DNA of 64,000 nt, taken from NCBI RefSeq assembly GCF_003987855.1, contig NZ_RXIZ01000004.1, positions 261,759-325,758 of the forward strand, in the 5' to 3' direction. The stretch comes from Hyphomicrobium sp. Lineage in GTDB: Bacteria; Pseudomonadota; Alphaproteobacteria; Rhizobiales; Hyphomicrobiaceae. Both the position numbers and the translations under genes were made by a program. Below the pieces are notes generated by a model. The model was not told the DNA's origin and searched no databases. It was given only the letters and a program-made list of their open reading frames with translations. Positions 425-13,211 of this stretch are shown here, one piece after another (the first letter of the stretch is position 1; each line of letters opens with the position of its first letter).

Positions 425-1725
425 CCAACTTCTCCCCGCGTGAAATCGTATCCGAACTCGATCGCTATATTGTCGGCCAGGGCGACGCCAAACGCGCCGT
501 CGCCATCGCCTTGCGCAACCGTTGGCGCCGCCAGCAATTGACCGGTGAACTGCGTGACGAAGTCCTGCCGAAAAACATTCTGATGATCGGCCCGACCGGC
601 GTCGGCAAAACCGAAATCTCGCGCCGCCTCGCAAAACTTGCAGGCGCGCCGTTCCTCAAAGTCGAAGCAACGAAGTTTACCGAGGTCGGCTACGTCGGCC
701 GCGACGTCGAAAGCATTATCCGCGATCTCGTTGAGGTCGGCATGGGCCTTGTCAAAGAGTCAAAACGTCAAGGCGTGCGCGCGAAAGCCGAAAAAGCCGC
801 CGAAGAGCGCGTGCTTGATGCACTTGTCGGCTCCAACGCATCTCCATCCACGCGCGACAGTTTCCGCAAGAAGTTGCGCAACAACGAATTGAACGACAAG
901 GAAATCGAGATCCTCGTCGCCGATACGGGCTCCCCCATCCCGACATTCGACATGCCCGGCGGCTCGATGGCAACGATCAACATCGGCGAGATGCTGGGTA
1001 AGGCGCTTGGCCAGCGGACGAAGTCGCGGCGCGTCAACGTCAAGGACAGCTTTGAAATTCTCATCGCCGAGGAAAGCGACAAGCTGATTGATAGCGATCA
1101 GATCTCCGGCGAAGCGATTGCTGCCGTCGAAAACAATGGCATCGTCTTCCTCGATGAGATCGACAAGATTTCATCACGCGGCGACGGCACGCGCGGCGGC
1201 GCCGATGTGTCTCGCGAAGGCGTGCAGCGGGACCTCCTGCCGTTGATCGAAGGCACGACCGTCGCGACGAAATACGGGCCGGTGAAAACCGACCACATTC
1301 TCTTCATCGCTTCGGGCGCGTTCCACGTTTCAAAACCCTCCGACTTGCTGCCCGAGCTGCAAGGCCGCTTGCCGATCCGCGTCGAACTCAACGCTTTGAC
1401 GCGAGATGACATGAAGCGCATTCTGACCGAGCCGCAGGCGAGCCTCATCAAACAATACATCGCGCTGATGGAAACCGAGGGCCTGACGCTCGAATTTCGT
1501 CCCGATGCCATCGACGCGCTGGCCGACGCCGCGGTCGAGGTGAACTCGACCGTCGAGAACATCGGCGCGCGGCGCCTACAGACGGTACTGGAGCGCGTGC
1601 TCGACGAAGTGTCGTTCGAGGCCTCCGACAAAAGCGGCGCGACCGTCGTGGTCGACGGTTCCTACGTCACCTCCCGGGTCGGCCAGCTCTCCAAGAACGC
1701 CGATCTGAGCCGATTTATTCTATAG
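421..1725 (+). CDS. hslU: ATP-dependent protease ATPase subunit HslU
   Basis: AAA+ unfoldase that partners the HslV peptidase in the cytosolic HslUV (ClpYQ) protease. The Walker A motif GPTGVGKT is at residues 57-64 and the Walker B stretch IVFLDEID starts at residue 241. The lysine- and glutamate-rich insertion between them is the I-domain. The C-terminal tail SRFIL matches the conserved HslU tail that docks into HslV. Length 434 aa is normal. It starts inside the stop of the preceding membrane-protein gene. hslV, usually a close upstream neighbour, is not next to it in the visible sequence and may lie further left. Confidence 0.97.
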
Positions 1726-1849
1726 TTCGCCATTCCGGCATTAGCTGCCGCGACCGGCGCGACGATGCCAGGACAATGGGCCCGCTATCCACGAACCGCG
1801 AACGCCTGTAAAAGAGGCCGCTTCCGAAGCTCAAAGCCATTTTTTGATT

Positions 1850-3040
1850 ATGACCGCCGCGCCCTTAGTTAAGATCGACACCGACGCATCCGCCGCGAAG
1901 CCCTCGCTCGCGGGACTGACGCGCGACGGCTTGAAGCTTGCGCTCGCTGCCGCCGGCGTCCCCGAAAAGCAATTGCGCATGCGCGTCGGCCAGCTGTGGA
2001 GCTGGCTGTACGTTCGCGGCGTCACGAGCTTCGAAGACATGACGGACGTTTCGAAGGATCTGCGCCGTCAGCTAAGCGAGCTCTATTCGCTCGATCGTCC
2101 CGAAATCGTGTCCGAGCAGATCTCTATCGATGGCACGCGCAAGTGGCTCCTGCGCTTGCCCAAGCGCAGTCATGAAGCCCGCCCGCCCGAGATCGAGACG
2201 GTCTACATTCCCGAAAGCGATCGCGGGACGCTCTGCATTTCGAGTCAGGTCGGCTGCACGCTGAATTGCTCGTTCTGCCACACCGGCACCCAGCGCCTGG
2301 TCCGCAACCTCGAAGCCCAAGAGATCGTCGGCCAGATCATGCTGGCGCGCGACCGCATCGGCGACTGGCCCGGAGCCAAGGGACCGGAGGATGGCCGCCT
2401 GCTTCCCAACGCCGAGCGCAAGATCACCAACGTCGTCCTCATGGGCATGGGCGAGCCGCTCTACAATTTCGACAACGTCAAAGCCGCGATGGAGGTCGCT
2501 TCCGACGGCGACGGCCTGTCGTTATCCAAGCGCCGCATTACGCTTTCGACTTCGGGCGTCGTCCCTGAGATCCCGCGATGGGGCGAGGAAGCCGACACCA
2601 TGCTTGCGATCTCGCTGCACGCCACGAACGACGCGCTGCGCGACGAGCTGGTGCCGATCAACAAGAAGTACCCGATCGCCGAGCTGATGGAGGCCTGCCG
2701 CAACTATCCCGGCCTCTCGAATGCCCGCCGCATCACCTTCGAATACGTGATGCTGAAAGGCGTGAACGACAGCCTTGCCGAGGCACGCGCGCTCGTTCGG
2801 CTGCTCGCTGGAATTCCTGCGAAAATCAATCTGATACCATTCAATCCCTGGCCCGGCACACGCTATGAGTGCTCCGATTGGGAAACGATCGAGCGCTTCG
2901 CCGACGTCGTGAACCGCGCCGGTTATGCGAGCCCGGTGCGCACCCCGCGCGGCCGGGACATTCTCGCGGCCTGCGGTCAGCTCAGGTCGGAAAGCCAGCG
3001 GCTCTCCGCGAAAGAACGCACTACGACGGCAGCCAACTAG
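1850..3040 (+). CDS. rlmN: Dual-specificity 23S rRNA/tRNA methyltransferase RlmN
   Basis: Radical-SAM enzyme that methylates C2 of adenine in 23S rRNA (A2503) and some tRNAs. The cluster-binding motif CTLNCSFC has Cys136, Cys140 and Cys143 (CxxxCxxC). The conserved C-terminal cysteine that forms the methylene-linked intermediate is Cys375 in [15 protein letters not shown] is the GGE-like SAM-contact motif. An in-frame TTG lies 6 bp upstream at 1844, but ATG 1850 gives the more usual N-terminus. 396 aa, typical for alphaproteobacteria. It stands alone, about 125 bp after hslU. Confidence 0.96.
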
Positions 3041-3137
3041 CGCTGCCGCCATTGGACCGGTTCGTTATTCCTGTTGAGCCCCAACCCCAGCCCTATATAG
3101 ACTTCGCGCCGAAGGGTGGACTTGGGGCGTAGATCTC

Positions 3138-3785
3138 GTGCTTGGCTTCGTTCGCACATTGGCGCGTATCGTCTTTGGCTGGGCAGTTGCGAGCCTCGCT
3201 GCCGGACTGGTCACCGTGCTGTTCGTCGACATCGACGTGCTCGCCGGACCCTTGGACCGGCTTCCCAAGACACTCAGCGAAACGTTCGACCTTGCGCTTC
3301 TGGCTGCCACGCACATCGCCATCTTCGCCTCGGTGTTCGTTTTGATCACGGCGGTGATCAGCGAATGGTTTTCCATCCGCACGCTGGCGTTCTACCTTCT
3401 GGTCGGCATCGCGATCGCTTTCCTGGGCTTTAGCGTGCAGTACGCGAGCGAGGTCGCCGGCCAGCCAACCATTCTCAACAACTACGCCGTCAAGGCCTTC
3501 ATGACCGTCGGCTTTGCAGGCGGCTTCGTTTACTGGCTCTCCGCCGGACAGTTCGCGGGGCGGGCTCCCCAACCCGAGAATCATTTGCTCGCTGCGTCGG
3601 CCTCGGGAACGGCGCGCGAGAATGACGAGGAATCGAGCGAGGTCGTCATCACTCGGCCGCCAAATCCGGATGAGCGTCCGCGGTGGCGGATGCCAGCACT
3701 CGAACGGCTGAGATTTGCCAACCGCACCTCCCGCGCCGATCCCGACGCTGCTGATGGCGATGACCCGAGCACCCGGGCCGATTGA
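3138..3785 (+). CDS. Hypothetical inner-membrane protein
   Basis: 215 aa with four predicted membrane segments: roughly residues 9-30 (LARIVFGWAVASLAAG), 50-76, 81-103 and 117-137. A hydrophilic acidic and proline/arginine-rich C-terminal tail follows from about residue 145. The start is GTG; no ATG lies in frame nearby. I do not recognise a family. Coding character is supported by a continuous frame with sensible membrane topology and by the absence of a better frame on either strand. Confidence 0.7.
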   Translation: MLGFVRTLARIVFGWAVASLAAGLVTVLFVDIDVLAGPLDRLPKTLSETFDLALLAATHIAIFASVFVLITAVISEWFSIRTLAFYLLVGIAIAFLGFSVQYASEVAGQPTILNNYAVKAFMTVGFAGGFVYWLSAGQFAGRAPQPENHLLAASASGTARENDEESSEVVITRPPNPDERPRWRMPALERLRFANRTSRADPDAADGDDPSTRAD

Positions 3786-3880
3786 ACCCGAATACCTTCG
3801 CAACCTCTCGATATCGTGATTAACCAAAAAGCCCCGGATGAATGTCCGCTGTTGCTGCGTCGCAACAAACGCGCTATATA

Positions 3881-4489
3881 ATGTCGCAGGACCCCCGAGG
3901 GATATCACCGTTGTTCGATTGTGCCCTGCATTTCCGCTTTCTGCAGAAAGCGACGGAAGCGATGTTCGAGATGGGCCAGGCCTCCGTGGCCGCCGCTCTT
4001 GCCTGCCAGAAGCGGGCCTTGGAAGACCTCTCGACGCCAACGCCTGAACCCGAGCCGCAGCCAAATCCGATGATGTGGTTCAGCGAATGGTTCGCCCCGG
4101 CGCCGCCGAAAGTGGCGCCCCAGCAGCCCGACTTGATGCAGTCGTGGATGGCCATGGCGAGCGCGTGTTCGCAGGCATATTGGCCAAATCCTCAAGCGCG
4201 ATCGGTGCCGGCTCTGCCGATGAACCCGATGTTTGCCGGCGCCGCGATTCCCTCCTTCTGGGGAATGTCGCCCTGGACGATGTATCAGGGCCCGATGGTG
4301 GCGATGATGCTGTCCTACGGCGTGCCCTACGCCGTCGCTGCCCCGACCGCCCGCGCCAGCACATCGGCGATGGACGCGGCGGACGCCGCCTGCTCCCAGT
4401 GGCGATTGGTGTTCGGAAGTCCCGAAGGCCAGCGCAGCCTCGCGCGCAACGTAACGGCGCCTGACTACTGGCCGAAATACCTTCACTGA
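3881..4489 (+). CDS. Hypothetical Met/Pro-rich protein
   Basis: About 202 aa starting MSQDPRGISP. The frame is open 39 bp further upstream (3842), but ATG 3881 sits just behind an AT-rich stretch and is the likelier start. The N-terminal 40 residues look like an amphipathic helix with Ala/Gln, which recalls phasin-like proteins only loosely. The middle is rich in Pro, Trp and Met. No catalytic motif or membrane anchor is clear. It converges on the Ala/Lys-rich gene downstream and shares an inverted repeat with it as possible terminator. Confidence 0.6.
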   Translation: MSQDPRGISPLFDCALHFRFLQKATEAMFEMGQASVAAALACQKRALEDLSTPTPEPEPQPNPMMWFSEWFAPAPPKVAPQQPDLMQSWMAMASACSQAYWPNPQARSVPALPMNPMFAGAAIPSFWGMSPWTMYQGPMVAMMLSYGVPYAVAAPTARASTSAMDAADAACSQWRLVFGSPEGQRSLARNVTAPDYWPKYLH

Positions 4490-4497
4490 AAACAAGA

Positions 4498-4521
4498 AAG
4501 CCGCCGCTCTCGCGACGGCTT
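4498..4521 (-). terminator. Hairpin terminator between convergent genes
   Basis: Inverted repeat with 10-bp arms (4498-4507 and 4512-4521) and a 4-base loop. Read on the minus strand one pair is G-U and the hairpin is followed by TCTTGTTTT. It therefore best serves the leftward Ala/Lys-rich gene ending at 4529. On the plus strand the same position is a C-A mismatch and the T-tract is poor. Confidence 0.6.
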
Positions 4522-4528
4522 CTGAAAA

Positions 4529-5368
4529 TCAGTCAGCGCCCGACGCGCCTGAGGTGTCAGCTGGCGGTGCTGCGTCGCCCCCGGCCGGAGCAGCCGCAGC
4601 TGCTGCTGCCGGAGCTTCTTCAGCCGGAGCAGCCGCCGGTTTCGGTTTCGCCTTCTTCGCTGCAGTCTTGGCTTTCTTGGCTGGCTTTGCGGTTTCCGTG
4701 CCGGTCGTCGTGGCTGCAGCCGTGGTTGTGGTACCGGTCGTAGCACCGGCCGCAGGTTTCGCGGCCGCCCCATTGGCTGCCCAAGGCAAAACTTCAGCCC
4801 CACCGGCACCCGTGGCACCCTTCGCGTCAGCAGCCTTATTGGCCTTCTGCGCCTTCTCTTCTTCTTTCTTCAGAATAGCGAGAGACCGGCACCGCGCCTT
4901 CGTTTCTTTGCCGGCGTCGTTCGTACCGGCCGAAACCCAGATGCAGGCGGTGTTCGTTCCGCATGCCTCTTCCGTCAGATTGAGACAGGATGCCTTGGCC
5001 GTTTTCGCTTTCTTCGCTGCAGGCTTGGCTGCCGGAGCACCGGAAGCGGCAGCACCATCTGCAGGCGGCGCCTCCGCAACGGCATTGGCGGGCACGGCAG
5101 CCTTCGCTGCCTTCTTCGTTTTCTCGTGCTTCTTGACGGGAGCTGGCGGAGCTTCGGCTGTGGCTGGCGCCGGAGCCGCAGCTTCAGGAGCAGCCGGCGC
5201 GGCCGAATCCGTCGGATGCGATGTCGGATCTTCTGACTGCGCCTGCGCTGGCGAATCATCCGGAGGAACGGTGACGGTTAATTCTTCGGCAGCGAGTGGA
5301 ACCGCCAAAATCCCGCTCAAAAGCCCGAGCCATAAGAACTTTCCGGCAATGCGAATCGATCTGCTCAC
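4529..5368 (-). CDS. Exported Ala/Lys/Pro-rich low-complexity protein with a four-Cys island
   Basis: 279 aa from GTG 5368. A purine-rich SD (AGGGGGGA) lies just upstream of that GTG and the protein then opens with a clean signal peptide (SRSIRIAGKF, hydrophobic core, cleavage near PLAA-EE at residues 26-29). The mature protein is mostly alanine, proline and lysine, with AKKAK-type repeats like histone H1 tails. A distinct island at residues 127-162 has Cys128, Cys136, Cys142 and Cys160 and normal composition, suggesting a small disulfide-bonded domain. Function unknown. The antisense frame is equally long but lacks an SD and is a composition artefact. Confidence 0.7.
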   Translation of the reverse strand: MSRSIRIAGKFLWLGLLSGILAVPLAAEELTVTVPPDDSPAQAQSEDPTSHPTDSAAPAAPEAAAPAPATAEAPPAPVKKHEKTKKAAKAAVPANAVAEAPPADGAAASGAPAAKPAAKKAKTAKASCLNLTEEACGTNTACIWVSAGTNDAGKETKARCRSLAILKKEEEKAQKANKAADAKGATGAGGAEVLPWAANGAAAKPAAGATTGTTTTAAATTTGTETAKPAKKAKTAAKKAKPKPAAAPAEEAPAAAAAAAPAGGDAAPPADTSGASGAD

Positions 5369-9977: not shown

Positions 9978-10001
9978 CGTTATAGCCCAACGAATATATC
10001 G
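9978..10001 (+). promoter_or_regulatory. Candidate ModE (molybdate-responsive) operator
   Basis: The sequence reads CGTTATAGC, six bases, AATATATCG. Against the published ModE-box consensus (CGNTATATA-N6-TATATANCG, Studholme and Pau) the right arm matches 7 of 8 fixed bases, the left arm 6 of 8, and the 6-base spacer is exact. The element ends 44 bp before the receptor start codon. It overlaps or abuts the only plausible promoter (TTGTTC at 9970 and TATATC at 9995, spaced 19), a position suited to repression by Mo-loaded ModE. The downstream operon encodes a Mop-domain protein, which supports the call. No modE gene is in the window. Confidence 0.6.
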
Positions 10002-10009
10002 CCACAAAA

Positions 10010-10025
10010 GGCACCGGGGGGTGCC
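10010..10025 (+). other. Leader hairpin upstream of TonB receptor
   Basis: Perfect 6-bp inverted repeat GGCACC / GGTGCC with a GGGG loop, just after the candidate ModE box and 20-21 bases before the start codon. It lies in the predicted 5' leader and could modulate ribosome access; there is no direct evidence for that. Confidence 0.35.
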
Positions 10026-10045
10026 GGAGTGTGGGGGTAAGAAAA

Positions 10046-12460
10046 GTGCGTAAGCGTTCCGTCGCTGCGATTGCGGTCGTGTGTCTATCGTTCACGGGTT
10101 CCAAGTTTTTGCGGGCACAGGAGGCGCCGACGCCAGGAGGCAACGTGACGGCCGACGAGGCGAGCGTTCTGCCGCCAGTGGTCGTGAACTCTCCAAATCA
10201 GCCGGTGTCGGCCACGAAGCGAAAGCCTCAAGCACAGACCGTATCTCAACCGACCGGCGGCAATGGACAAGCCGGATCGAGCAAAGCAGCAGGCTCCGGA
10301 GGCGCGCCTGCGATCGCGACGGGCGTCTTCACGCTCGGCCAGCTCGACATGATTGGCGGATCGACCATCACCAGCGAGGCTATGTGGACGTTCAATAAGC
10401 AGTCGCTCGGCCAAGCCGCAAACTTGCTGCCCGGCGTTTCGTGGTCAAGCACAGGCTCACCACAAGCCAACTCCAGCGGCTCGCGCAATGAAGGCGATAT
10501 CTTCGTTCGCGGATTCAATCGCTTTCAGGTTCCGCTCTCGATCGACGGCGTCAGGGTTTACCTTCCCGCCGACAACCGGATCGACATGAATCGCGCCGAA
10601 GTTCAGGTCGCGAAAGGCTACGTATCCGTCCTGAATGGGCCGGGCGGCGAAGGCGGCGCAATCAATCTTGTCTCGCGCAAGCCGACGAAGGAAATAGAAA
10701 TCGAGGGTCGTGCCGGCGTTATCGTCAATGGCGACGTCGACGATCTGAATTCCTGGAACGCATATGCGTTCGCCGGCACGCGCCAGAAGGGCTATTACGC
10801 ACAAATTTCAGGTACGATCGTCGACCAGGACCATTTCAATCTGTCGCACGATTTCACGCCTGCAGGCCCCGGCACCCTCGGCTACAGCAACGGCGTGGCC
10901 CAGGGCTTTCCCTACGAAAACGGCGGCGATCGCGACCACTCGGACTTTAGGGATTGGCGCATAAACACCAAGGTCGGCATCACGCCGAACGCCACTGACG
11001 AATATAGCATCAACTATACAAATCAGCAGAGCGAGAAGGATGCGCCGCTCCACGTCGACCGCCAGATCGTTCAAGGATACTTCAACGGCAATCAGGTTCG
11101 ATATTGGCAATGGCCCGATTGGAATACCTCGAGCCTCTCGTGGTTATCGAAAACGAAGCTCGGCGACGCCTCATATATCAAGACAAACATCTATTATAAT
11201 ACGTTCGACAACACGATCTCATTCTATCCCAACGCGACGTACACCAACCAGACCGCCGACAGTCCATATGAAGATTATTCATACGGCGGCTTTGTCGAGA
11301 TGGGCACCGACTTGATCCCGATGAACACGCTGAAGGGATCAATTCATTACCGCAAGGACGTGCACGCCGAACACAGCGTCAACTACAGCTACGCAACCTC
11401 GCCCCCGGCCGTAACGGAGAATGGCTACAAGCGTCAGGCTGAGGACGTATGGTCGTTCGCCGTCGAAAATACCTTTCACGCCACCAGCAGCCTCGACCTC
11501 GTTGCCGGCGTCAGCTTCGATACGAACCAAGTCTTGGAAAACGTTGCGAACGGTGTCGAGGCCGGCACGTCAAAGCCCAACGCCAACGCATGGAACTGGC
11601 AGACCGCAGCGATCTATCGCTACAGCCCGACAGGATCTGTCCACGCCGACGTCTCAAGCCGAACGCGCTTCCCGACATTGTTCGAGCGTTACAGCACCCG
11701 CTTCGACGCCAAGGATCCCGATCCAAACGTCGCCCCCGAGCGTGCCACCAACTACGAAATTGGCATCGGAGATACGGTGTTTCGTAATGTCCGCATGTCC
11801 TCTGCCGTCTTCTATTCCGACGTCGAACACAGCATCCAAAACGCTTTCACGGCGGCCAATGCAAAGACCTCTATCGTTGGCGTCAGCCCGGACGGCCACT
11901 ACTACGGCGTCGAGTTTTCGGCCGATTGGGACGTCACGCGGACGCTGCGATTCGGAGGAAATTATACCTACACCGAGCGAGATCTGGATTTTGTGGGCGC
12001 AGCAGCTGATCTGCCCGCTGGAACGTCGGCATCAGTACGAAATGCCGTCGCCGCAACTCAGCTCGAAGGCGTGCCGCGTCACAAAGGGTTTATCTACTTG
12101 GCGTGGAAAGTGACCGACAAACTGACGTTCACGCCAAACGTCGAGCTTGCATCCGACCGCGTATCGCTGGTCACGAGCTGCGCCTCGACGCTAGTCCCAA
12201 GCGGCGGCGCCAGTGCAACGCCAATCAGCTCATCAAACGGCAACTGCGGCAAAGCGCCGAACCCCGGCGCCAAGCAACTCCCGAGCTACGTTAATCTCGG
12301 CGCCTACGCGCTTGTCAATTTTCAGGCCGAATACGCATTCAATGATAATGCATCCATTGCAATTGGAGGCAGCAATCTGCTTGATGAAAATTATTCACTG
12401 GCAGACGGCTTTCCCGAGCCAGGGCGCCAATTCTTTGCTAACTTGCGAGCTCGCTTCTGA
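10046..12460 (+). CDS. TonB-dependent outer-membrane receptor, possibly for a molybdenum/tungsten oxyanion complex
   Basis: 804 aa. GTG 10046 is preceded at 8 bases by GGGGG and gives the signal peptide RKRSVAAIAVVCLSFTG, cleaved near LRAQ-E; GTG 10031 is an in-frame alternative. After a proline/glutamine-rich linker, the plug domain spans about residues 95-215 (LGQAANLLPGVSW, DIFVRGFNRFQVPLSIDGV, GPGGEGGAINLVSR). A 22-strand barrel follows and ends in the canonical terminal Phe (FFANLRARF). The plug and barrel resemble siderophore-type receptors but I cannot assign a ligand from sequence. It heads an operon with a Mop protein (15-bp gap) and an exported protein, behind a ModE-type operator. 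A molybdate or tungstate role is inferred from that context alone. Confidence 0.9.
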   Translation: MRKRSVAAIAVVCLSFTGSKFLRAQEAPTPGGNVTADEASVLPPVVVNSPNQPVSATKRKPQAQTVSQPTGGNGQAGSSKAAGSGGAPAIATGVFTLGQLDMIGGSTITSEAMWTFNKQSLGQAANLLPGVSWSSTGSPQANSSGSRNEGDIFVRGFNRFQVPLSIDGVRVYLPADNRIDMNRAEVQVAKGYVSVLNGPGGEGGAINLVSRKPTKEIEIEGRAGVIVNGDVDDLNSWNAYAFAGTRQKGYYAQISGTIVDQDHFNLSHDFTPAGPGTLGYSNGVAQGFPYENGGDRDHSDFRDWRINTKVGITPNATDEYSINYTNQQSEKDAPLHVDRQIVQGYFNGNQVRYWQWPDWNTSSLSWLSKTKLGDASYIKTNIYYNTFDNTISFYPNATYTNQTADSPYEDYSYGGFVEMGTDLIPMNTLKGSIHYRKDVHAEHSVNYSYATSPPAVTENGYKRQAEDVWSFAVENTFHATSSLDLVAGVSFDTNQVLENVANGVEAGTSKPNANAWNWQTAAIYRYSPTGSVHADVSSRTRFPTLFERYSTRFDAKDPDPNVAPERATNYEIGIGDTVFRNVRMSSAVFYSDVEHSIQNAFTAANAKTSIVGVSPDGHYYGVEFSADWDVTRTLRFGGNYTYTERDLDFVGAAADLPAGTSASVRNAVAATQLEGVPRHKGFIYLAWKVTDKLTFTPNVELASDRVSLVTSCASTLVPSGGASATPISSSNGNCGKAPNPGAKQLPSYVNLGAYALVNFQAEYAFNDNASIAIGGSNLLDENYSLADGFPEPGRQFFANLRARF

Positions 12461-12475
12461 GAGGAAGGACTAGGA

Positions 12476-12682
12476 ATGAAGATTAGCGCGAGAAACGTGC
12501 TCAAAGGAAAAATTGTCGACGTCGTGAAAGGCGCGACGACGGCTCACGTGCGCATCGACGTCGGCGGCACCATCGTGACGGCTTCGATCACCAACGAAGC
12601 CGTCGCCGACCTAGGTCTTGAAAAAGGCATGTCGGCGTCCGCCGTCATCAAGGCCTCTGATGTCATGGTTGCGGTGGACTGA
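12476..12682 (+). CDS. Mop/TOBE-domain molybdate-binding protein (molbindin)
   Basis: 68 aa, one complete Mop domain: SARNVLKGKIVDVVKGATTA, then HVRIDVGGTIVTASITN, then LGLEKGMSASAVIKASDVMV. These match molbindins and the C-terminal TOBE domains of ModC and ModE. Such proteins bind molybdate or tungstate in the cytoplasm as multimers with sites at subunit interfaces, and act as stores or buffers. The SD AGGA lies directly upstream of ATG. It is sandwiched between the TonB receptor and an exported protein, with 15-bp and 1-bp gaps, so all three should be on one transcript. Confidence 0.9.
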   Translation: MKISARNVLKGKIVDVVKGATTAHVRIDVGGTIVTASITNEAVADLGLEKGMSASAVIKASDVMVAVD

Positions 12683-12683
12683 C

Positions 12684-13211
12684 ATGAATAACGCACGTTG
12701 GATTTCCGCGCTGGCATGCGCCGCAGCGCTCGCGATCTCCTCGCAGGCCTTCGCTGCAGAAACGGGCGGCTGCCAGAGTTTCTCTTGGTCGATCGCGACC
12801 GAGTTGAAATGGATGAAAGCGGCGGACAGCCAGGCGGCTGCCTCCGGGGCCAAGCTTCCTCAGCCACCTGAAAAGGCCATCACCCTGGCGCTTGAACCCA
12901 TGAGCGCCGTTTCCTTTCCTGTCGCGCCGACCGGCAAGCGCAAGCTGGAAGGCGAAGCGCATGGCGGCATCGTGACCTTCGACAGCCCGAGCAGCGCGCC
13001 GGGCTCCTATCAGGTTTCGATGGATGTTCCGGGCTGGGTCGACGTCGTTCAGGATGGCAAGGCGCTGAAGCCGACAGCCCACAGCGGCAAGTCCGACTGC
13101 GACGGCGTCCGCAAGAGCGTTCGCTTCACGCTGGATCCCGGCCCGTTTACGCTTGAATTCAGCAATATCAAAAACGACAAGATGAAGTTCACGGTCAAAC
13201 AGGCGGACTAG
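12684..13211 (+). CDS. Exported protein of unknown function in the TonB receptor-Mop operon
   Basis: 175 aa from ATG 12684, one base after the Mop stop. A signal peptide (NNARWISALACAAALAIS, cleavage after AFA-AE near residue 24) predicts a periplasmic location. The mature part has two or three cysteines (GGCQSF near the start, SDCDGVRKS late). Its C-terminal half is beta-rich, with the pattern GWVDVVQDGKALKP followed by HSGKSDCDGVRKSVRF and GPFTLEFS. From memory this pattern occurs in a family of uncharacterised secreted proteins, unverified here. Context makes it a candidate periplasmic partner of the receptor, for example a ligand-binding or processing protein. A frame extension to 12618 overlaps mop and is unlikely. 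Confidence 0.85.
   Translation: MNNARWISALACAAALAISSQAFAAETGGCQSFSWSIATELKWMKAADSQAAASGAKLPQPPEKAITLALEPMSAVSFPVAPTGKRKLEGEAHGGIVTFDSPSSAPGSYQVSMDVPGWVDVVQDGKALKPTAHSGKSDCDGVRKSVRFTLDPGPFTLEFSNIKNDKMKFTVKQAD

Follow-up and report, generated by a model that had tools for sequence, protein, structure and literature searches.

We analysed a window of 64,000 nucleotides from Hyphomicrobium sp. (assembly GCF_003987855.1, contig NZ_RXIZ01000004.1, positions 261,759 to 325,758), which lies on contig C17 of the 3.78-Mb genome denoted G000 here. The window carries a forward-strand operon of three genes, encoding a TonB-dependent receptor, a lone molybdate/tungstate-binding Mop protein, and an exported protein, preceded by a ModE-type molybdenum box (Mo-box). 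The box, a 24-bp element of sequence CGTTATAGCCCAACGAATATATCG at 9978–10001 (no strand assigned), matches 12 of 12 positions of the core CGNTATA-N10-TATANCG and lies over the receptor promoter, 44 bp 5′ of the likely start codon. The receptor gene (10046–12460, ~804 aa) encodes a plug domain (PF07715, 38.8 bits) and a barrel domain (PF00593, 109.4 bits), both above cut-off; its mechanically called open reading frame (ORF) opens at GTG 10031, but comparison with relatives and a G-rich ribosome site seen by eye make GTG 10046 the more likely start. The mop gene (12476–12682, 68 aa) begins 15 bp past the receptor stop, and its product is a single TOBE domain scoring well above cut-off for both TIGR00638 (76.9 bits, cut-off 55) and PF03459 (56.4 bits, cut-off 22.3). 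The gene for the exported protein (12684–13211, 175 aa) follows 1 bp past mop. The original prediction, made from the sequence of this stretch, had described the ModE-like element, the receptor, the lone Mop, and an exported protein in this arrangement, and each was located as described, with the receptor start revised.

The box core corresponds to the outer portion of the Escherichia coli ModE consensus, given in full as ATCGNTATATA-N6-TATATANCGAT in a passage of PMC545781. The outer core agrees with that consensus at all 12 positions and the inner TA steps and the outer flanks differ, for a total of 14/20 matching positions by eye. The local form can be written CGNTATAGC-N6-GCTATANCG, and a variant, CGNTATATTC-N4-GAATATANCG, is present in other Hyphomicrobium records. 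An exact match to the core occurs in the genome solely at 9978–10001, and none of 2000 Markov resamples of the 330-bp receptor promoter attained 12/12.

Next, we evaluated box conservation across promoters, scoring stretches of at most 330 bp around each operon start by their best 12-position core match, comparing this score with 2000 Markov resamples, and setting the pass mark at ≥10/12. The starts were placed manually according to BLAST matches, and the promoter rows are related genomes picked for holding the genes, i.e., they are not independent trials. Three stretches with no ModA match (L135, L138, and L141), two receptor remnants (L057 and L061), and repeat fetches of counted genomes were omitted, while a broken receptor copy from G004 (L063) was retained among the receptor rows. 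Lack of conservation among relatives had been named beforehand as an outcome that would speak against the original prediction; in fact, 26 of 34 receptor promoters passed (0.42 expected), including 9/10 of the first group, 5/6 of the type-2 receptors (defined by 46 to 49% identity, against 62 to 100% for type 1), and 12/18 of the others, and the box position is shared with most receptor relatives. All 13 modA promoters also passed (0.08 expected), eleven of them at exactly 10, with the promoter of the own-genome modA likewise scoring 10/12. Among promoters of lysR–formate dehydrogenase loci, 9/12 passed (0.10 expected), with two of the remainder scoring 9 (G010 and G679) and one scoring 7 (G018). 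No control region passed (0/36); six of these lie upstream of Mop genes without a preceding receptor, and the rest precede neighbouring genes, which are in many cases mutual orthologues. The receptor promoters of G009 and G732 were scored after the 34-row count, and the former reached 11 on a short stretch of 146 bases.

Elsewhere in the genome, a modA-modB-modC set, with modA and modC above curated cut-offs, is convergent with a gene for a 130-aa ModE, whose ModE repressor domain match (E = 1.5e-25) scores 89.1 bits against a curated cut-off of 98.5. A strong ModE match was found in 21 of the 22 genus genomes, and the one genome without it, G002, also has no match for TOBE, the exported protein, the metal-free formate dehydrogenase, the receptor, or the box. 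Conversely, three ModE-bearing genomes yielded no box in a 16-position pattern scan of the 22 genomes. ModE adjoins receptor relatives in seven stretches (L070, L252, L255, L256, L261, L262, and L264), and in five of these (L252, L255, L256, L261, and L262) the receptor gene is itself boxed. In L261 and L262, Mop, receptor, ModE, and the lysR–formate dehydrogenase genes are clustered together, and L262 further holds a PF01497 binding protein, a FecCD permease, and an ATPase. In L264, ModE is full-length and contains two TOBE stretches, and neither a separate Mop match nor a box is present. Mop is followed in both L261 and L262 by an ORF whose product has a TrmO-type tRNA methyltransferase domain.

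For the exported protein, no Pfam or NCBIfam family was matched above cut-off. An identity as CopC was rejected (Pfam match E = 0.049, below cut-off), and the best PDB sequence match (E = 0.25) was not convincing. An AlphaFold2 model predicts a beta-sandwich with a mean predicted local distance difference test (pLDDT) score of 85.5, and its top 50 fold matches comprise generic beta-sandwiches only (best target-normalised template modelling score, 0.62), from which no function was derived; Cys30 and Cys139 are conserved without exception across 16 sequences. The protein was detected in 18/60 panel genomes, namely 17/22 of the genus (this one included) and G028. Its neighbourhood was evaluated in the best 80 of 228 relatives from a species-genome collection, counting modA as a neighbour when a match lay within 1.5 kb downstream. 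By this rule, modA is next downstream in 51 of the 80 loci, 37 of these being titled Bradyrhizobium and 19 having Mop upstream, while 14 further loci place the gene after a receptor (9 with Mop between), 6 beside Mop only, and 9 beside none of these, so that 71/80 relatives adjoin Mop, modA, or a receptor. In three of the nine remaining loci (L159, L168, and L170), the gene follows those for TupA-like and ModA-like binding proteins; in the two that were scanned, the TupA-like matches score 247 and 252 bits against a cut-off of 400, and the ModA-like matches 322 bits against a cut-off of 264. These modA, TupA-like, and ModA-like neighbours tie the exported protein to the uptake of molybdate or tungstate with no recourse to the receptor, which strengthens the connection to molybdenum uptake proposed originally. 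As a separate observation, G019 holds a broken copy of the exported-protein gene behind an intact Mop (L128, 1491–2022) as well as a second copy with a type-2 receptor.

Receptor relatives (E ≤ 1e-60) occur in 16 of the 22 genus genomes at one each, comprising seven type-1 receptors, eight type-2 receptors, and one broken copy, and no genome holds two (G001 is among those with the type-1 operon); at the order level, 21/397 genomes have a match at E ≤ 1e-110. The order receptor–Mop–exported protein recurs inside the genus and beyond, which bears out the conservation of the triad. G020 and G015 hold just 3′ remnants of a type-1 receptor and G004 a broken copy, while a type-2 receptor lies elsewhere in the genome in G011, G007, G016, G017, G008, and G015. 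One receptor type thus seems to replace the other in the genus, since the genomes that have lost type 1, except G020 and G004, encode type 2 elsewhere. A Hyphomicrobium-type receptor–Mop–exported-protein set was also seen on a 3-kb contig filed as Phycisphaerae (L154), an assignment that is probably a binning error.

The receptor falls below cut-off for all 11 NCBIfam models matched, no PDB chain matches it at E ≤ 0.001, and an LPPVV motif invariant in 11 receptor sequences (residues 47–51 of the listed ORF) may resemble a TonB box. One alternative is that the operon is ModE-controlled but that the receptor imports another need of molybdenum-scarce cells, for instance a siderophore carrying iron, or an organic cofactor that molybdenum-free metabolism requires. 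The best of the weak NCBIfam matches is indeed to a siderophore-receptor model (TIGR01783, 75.6 bits against a cut-off of 223.5), the ATP-binding cassette importer in L262 belongs to the Fec/Btu-type class that serves siderophores, other chelated metals, and vitamin B12, and in Azotobacter, according to a passage of PMC9542535, three genes dependent on VnfA1, a regulator of nitrogenase, encode TonB-dependent siderophore receptors, the nearest parallel found in the literature. Set against this are the partners of the receptor, i.e., Mop, ModE, and an exported protein whose gene neighbours modA in other loci, and no iron-uptake gene was seen beside the receptor in this genome. On balance, we regard a ligand other than molybdenum or tungsten as unlikely.

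Taken together, the operon is a strong candidate for a system that imports scarce molybdenum or tungsten across the outer membrane, and we consider it probable, on the evidence of its layout, its conservation, and the genes around it, that it is a ModE-repressed molybdenum-starvation operon in which the receptor imports a molybdenum or tungsten species and the exported protein, ModABC, and Mop act downstream. We infer ModE binding, the response to molybdenum, transport together with its ligand, and the roles of both Mop and the exported protein as follows. When molybdenum (or tungsten) is ample, ModE would bind the box over the promoter and keep the operon off. When it is scarce, the operon would be on, and the TonB-energised receptor would bring a molybdenum (or tungsten) species into the periplasm. 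TonB receptors serve large or scarce ligands, and for this reason, together with the FecCD-type importer in L262, a chelate or oligomer is likelier than free molybdate. The exported protein might receive or free the imported species, or hand it to ModA, after which ModABC would move molybdate to the cytoplasm, where Mop may store it or report to ModE. As a substrate, molybdenum is not distinguishable from tungsten on these data.

Several observations weigh against this reading. Eight of the 34 receptor promoters score below 10/12, with the four Rhodomicrobium-type rows and G721 at 7 and G006, G008, and L149 at 9, and the later-scored G732 also stands at 7. Across the 60 genomes, no ModE match attains the curated cut-off. 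The structure model of the receptor (mean pLDDT 42.2) was too poor to be used for a strand count or fold search. None of the 51 modA-type loci of the exported protein contains a receptor by the neighbourhood rule, none of the 20 examined has a box at more than 12/16 positions, and two Bradyrhizobium loci viewed gene by gene show no receptor adjoining the operon. In five genomes of the genus (G011, G007, G016, G017, and G008), Mop and the exported protein lie directly behind an upstream carbon-nitrogen hydrolase gene with no adjacent receptor or box, and G020 and G004 retain both genes without an intact receptor, which speaks against a strict need for it. Finally, box counts show no genome-wide excess: with ≤1 mismatch, this genome holds 3 core sites against 5 for a reversed control pattern, and the 16-position pattern with ≤2 mismatches gives 48 sites against 92 for the reversed control across the 22 genomes.

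Because the reversed control totals as many sites or more, genome-wide enrichment was dropped as evidence. These counts would also fit an ordinary siderophore receptor that happens to lie behind a chance ModE-like palindrome and beside an unrelated Mop gene. That explanation is nevertheless already disfavoured by the conserved placement of the box, the recurring triad, and the modA neighbourhood of the exported protein, and we consider it extremely improbable. The above-chance signal lies in where the box is placed rather than in how often it occurs, as judged from its conserved position at promoters and from the Markov resamples.

Beyond the operon, the predicted ModE regulon appears wider and would include modABC along with the lysR gene that accompanies a metal-free formate dehydrogenase. 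One of the one-mismatch sites in this genome lies outside the window, between lysR and the gene for a metal-free NAD formate dehydrogenase (G000:C20; L053, 5167–7618), which scores 706.6 bits against a cut-off of 329 for NF005750. In this genome and in G014, the two genes are divergent; a box matching 15 and 14 of 16 positions, respectively, lies 6 bp before the lysR match, while the region before the dehydrogenase gene carries no box (score of 8 each). The order box–lysR–formate dehydrogenase recurs in several relatives; in G001 and G028, where the stretch shows no lysR match, the dehydrogenase genes score 8 each. The metal-free enzyme is encoded, at E ≤ 1e-100, by 13/22 genus genomes and G028, and a molybdenum-type formate dehydrogenase alpha subunit is above cut-off in 21/22, including this genome. 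The position of the box suggests a molybdenum-sparing switch, in which LysR would activate the formate dehydrogenase gene. Such control would parallel that of Rhodobacter capsulatus, where the ModE-like MopA and MopB repress anfA, the activator of molybdenum-free nitrogenase, via Mo-boxes, as described in a passage of PMC6925177. With one box type before both modA and the dehydrogenase lysR, the cell might scavenge molybdenum and replace a molybdenum enzyme at once. Separately, this genome holds a formate-dehydrogenase-like gene with one in-frame TGA (G000:C1:122934-124217), as do at least 12 other genus genomes; it is probably that of a selenocysteine enzyme.

The lysR site also raises the question of which regulator owns the box. 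LysR proteins often regulate their own genes, and the box lies directly before lysR, so the box could belong to another regulator such as this LysR, with the link to molybdenum being indirect. This is, however, very unlikely. Six genomes (G017, G019, G009, G012, G005, and G021) lack such a formate dehydrogenase at E ≤ 1e-100, yet retain modA boxes and a strong ModE match, and the five stretches noted above encode ModE beside boxed receptor genes. LysR was accordingly disfavoured as the owner of the box, and ModE remains the preferred regulator.

How this ModE would perceive molybdenum is a separate matter. Its domain content is HTH_1 only, with no molybdate-binding domain, and ModC matches positions 2–221 of a 353-position model and thus lacks the TOBE part. 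Mop is the sole PF03459 match of the genome, in a search limited to PF03459 among TOBE families. These two features of ModE and Mop hint at a split sensor, in which Mop would be a separate molybdenum-sensing subunit rather than a store, binding molybdate and then enabling ModE to bind the box. This possibility is compatible with the starvation operon favoured above. TOBE is above cut-off in 17/22 genus genomes, and for Desulfovibrio, the sensing of molybdenum by a DNA-binding-only ModE was called not clear in a passage of a 2004 paper (PMC545781). Three genomes, G012 (92% complete), G014 (85%), and G005 (71%), encode ModE and modABC and carry a modA box, yet show no TOBE match, which suggests that Mop is not obligatory, and the region directly upstream of Mop has no box in G011, G007, G016, G017, G008, and G019 (7 or 8 of 12). 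We see a split sensor as somewhat doubtful. The proposed role of Mop as a metal buffer is amended to this extent: Mop may be a sensing partner and not a buffer alone, although the genomes with ModE and no TOBE match speak against its being required.

At its widest, the system could be a dedicated TonB route that takes up a chelate of molybdenum or tungsten and has its own periplasmic partner, supplemented by a Fec/Btu-type importer in one sister lineage and governed by a split sensor of HTH_1-only ModE and Mop that also switches on molybdenum-free formate dehydrogenase, i.e., a whole-cell scavenging and sparing switch in methylotrophs. We put this forward tentatively, as a picture that may well prove too broad.

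Other features were recorded around the box and at box-like sites elsewhere. Between the box and the receptor start codon lies a short forward-strand leader hairpin (10010–10025, GGCACC-GGGG-GGTGCC), with at least five pairs in this row and in ~12 of 21 other rows by eye and with differing stem letters; type-2 receptor rows are mostly without it (by eye). It might act as an RNA element with a stabilising or regulatory role. In the analysed genome, a box on G000:C9 lies between permease-like and GntR-like genes (by eye), and one on G000:C15 was set aside, being inside an ORF without evident molybdenum role (by eye). In G006, a box lies ~110 bp ahead of the portion of an ORF that matches MoeA (L113, 6069), on a stretch that also carries Mop and the lysR–formate dehydrogenase genes. 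Box-like sites were seen just 5′ of aldoxime-dehydratase-like genes in three genus genomes (L108, 11857; L120, 4207; L121, 4442); the assignment rests on PF13816 in L120, the sole one scanned, and on inspection by eye in L108 and L121, and we know of no link between such genes and molybdenum. Further box-like sites lie 5′ of SMP-30-like genes (L117, 3936; L119, 4316; L261, 10891; the first two by eye), which in L117 and L119 are followed by a gene of sorbosone-dehydrogenase/cytochrome c type; the L261 site adjoins the Mop–receptor–ModE–formate dehydrogenase cluster. In G010, a box, a 129-aa ORF that matches no NCBIfam model, and an ORF that resembles a TonB receptor by eye stand behind formate dehydrogenase genes (L108, 75–3107). 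Lastly, repeat-rich ORFs in L116 (~1490–5362) resemble an array of clustered regularly interspaced short palindromic repeats (CRISPR) and contain a 24-bp sequence resembling the box that recurs at a spacing of 61 bp; these boxes were put down to chance.

The components of this system have known counterparts. In E. coli, ModE and its box control modABC, and the MopA/MopB regulon of R. capsulatus shares with the present one the ModE-type repressor, the Mo-box, control of modABC (predicted here), and a box before the regulator gene of a molybdenum-free enzyme, lysR here and anfA in R. capsulatus (PMC6925177). The differences lie in the TonB-dependent receptor and exported protein as predicted targets, in a ModE without a molybdate-binding domain, and in formate dehydrogenase rather than nitrogenase as the substitute enzyme. 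TonB-dependent receptors for siderophores, vitamin B12, and nickel have the plug and barrel in common with this one, and the set of periplasmic binding protein, FecCD permease, and ATPase beside its relative in L262 is of a kind with theirs, but they differ from it in its Mo-type box and its Mop and ModE partners, as well as in the absence of any NCBIfam or PDB match at the thresholds given above. Mop matches six solved Mop-type sequences, including 1h9j, 1gug (48.5 bits), and 1fr3 (40.2 bits), the latter two presumably from Clostridium and Sporomusa; these stand-alone proteins likewise consist of a single TOBE domain, whereas Mop here is encoded between receptor and exported-protein genes in a genome whose ModE lacks TOBE. 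MolBCA is a molybdate/tungstate importer of the FecCD class, and the importer beside Mop, receptor, and ModE in L262 is similar to it in class, a comparison that does not extend to orthology; the analysed genome itself has ModABC beside ModE. No TonB receptor for molybdenum or tungsten was named in the titles and opening lines of abstracts listed from the open literature searched, a search that did not extend to subscription papers or RegPrecise. TonB receptors, Mop proteins, and ModE boxes are thus each already known, and it is their combination that varies here; we make no claim to priority.

Molybdate is usually thought to enter the periplasm by passive diffusion. If true, an energy-driven outer-membrane route would point to chelated molybdenum as a nutrient and to competition for it in low-molybdenum waters and soils, and the predicted regulon makes such uptake testable in cultured strains. 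The analysis also proposes a function class for an exported protein, so far uncharacterised, that occurs in Hyphomicrobium and Bradyrhizobium relatives, and it points to a candidate control site for the metal-free formate dehydrogenase, which has uses in biotechnology. More generally, these genomes may bear on how DNA-binding-only ModE proteins sense molybdenum, the point described as not clear in the 2004 passage (PMC545781).

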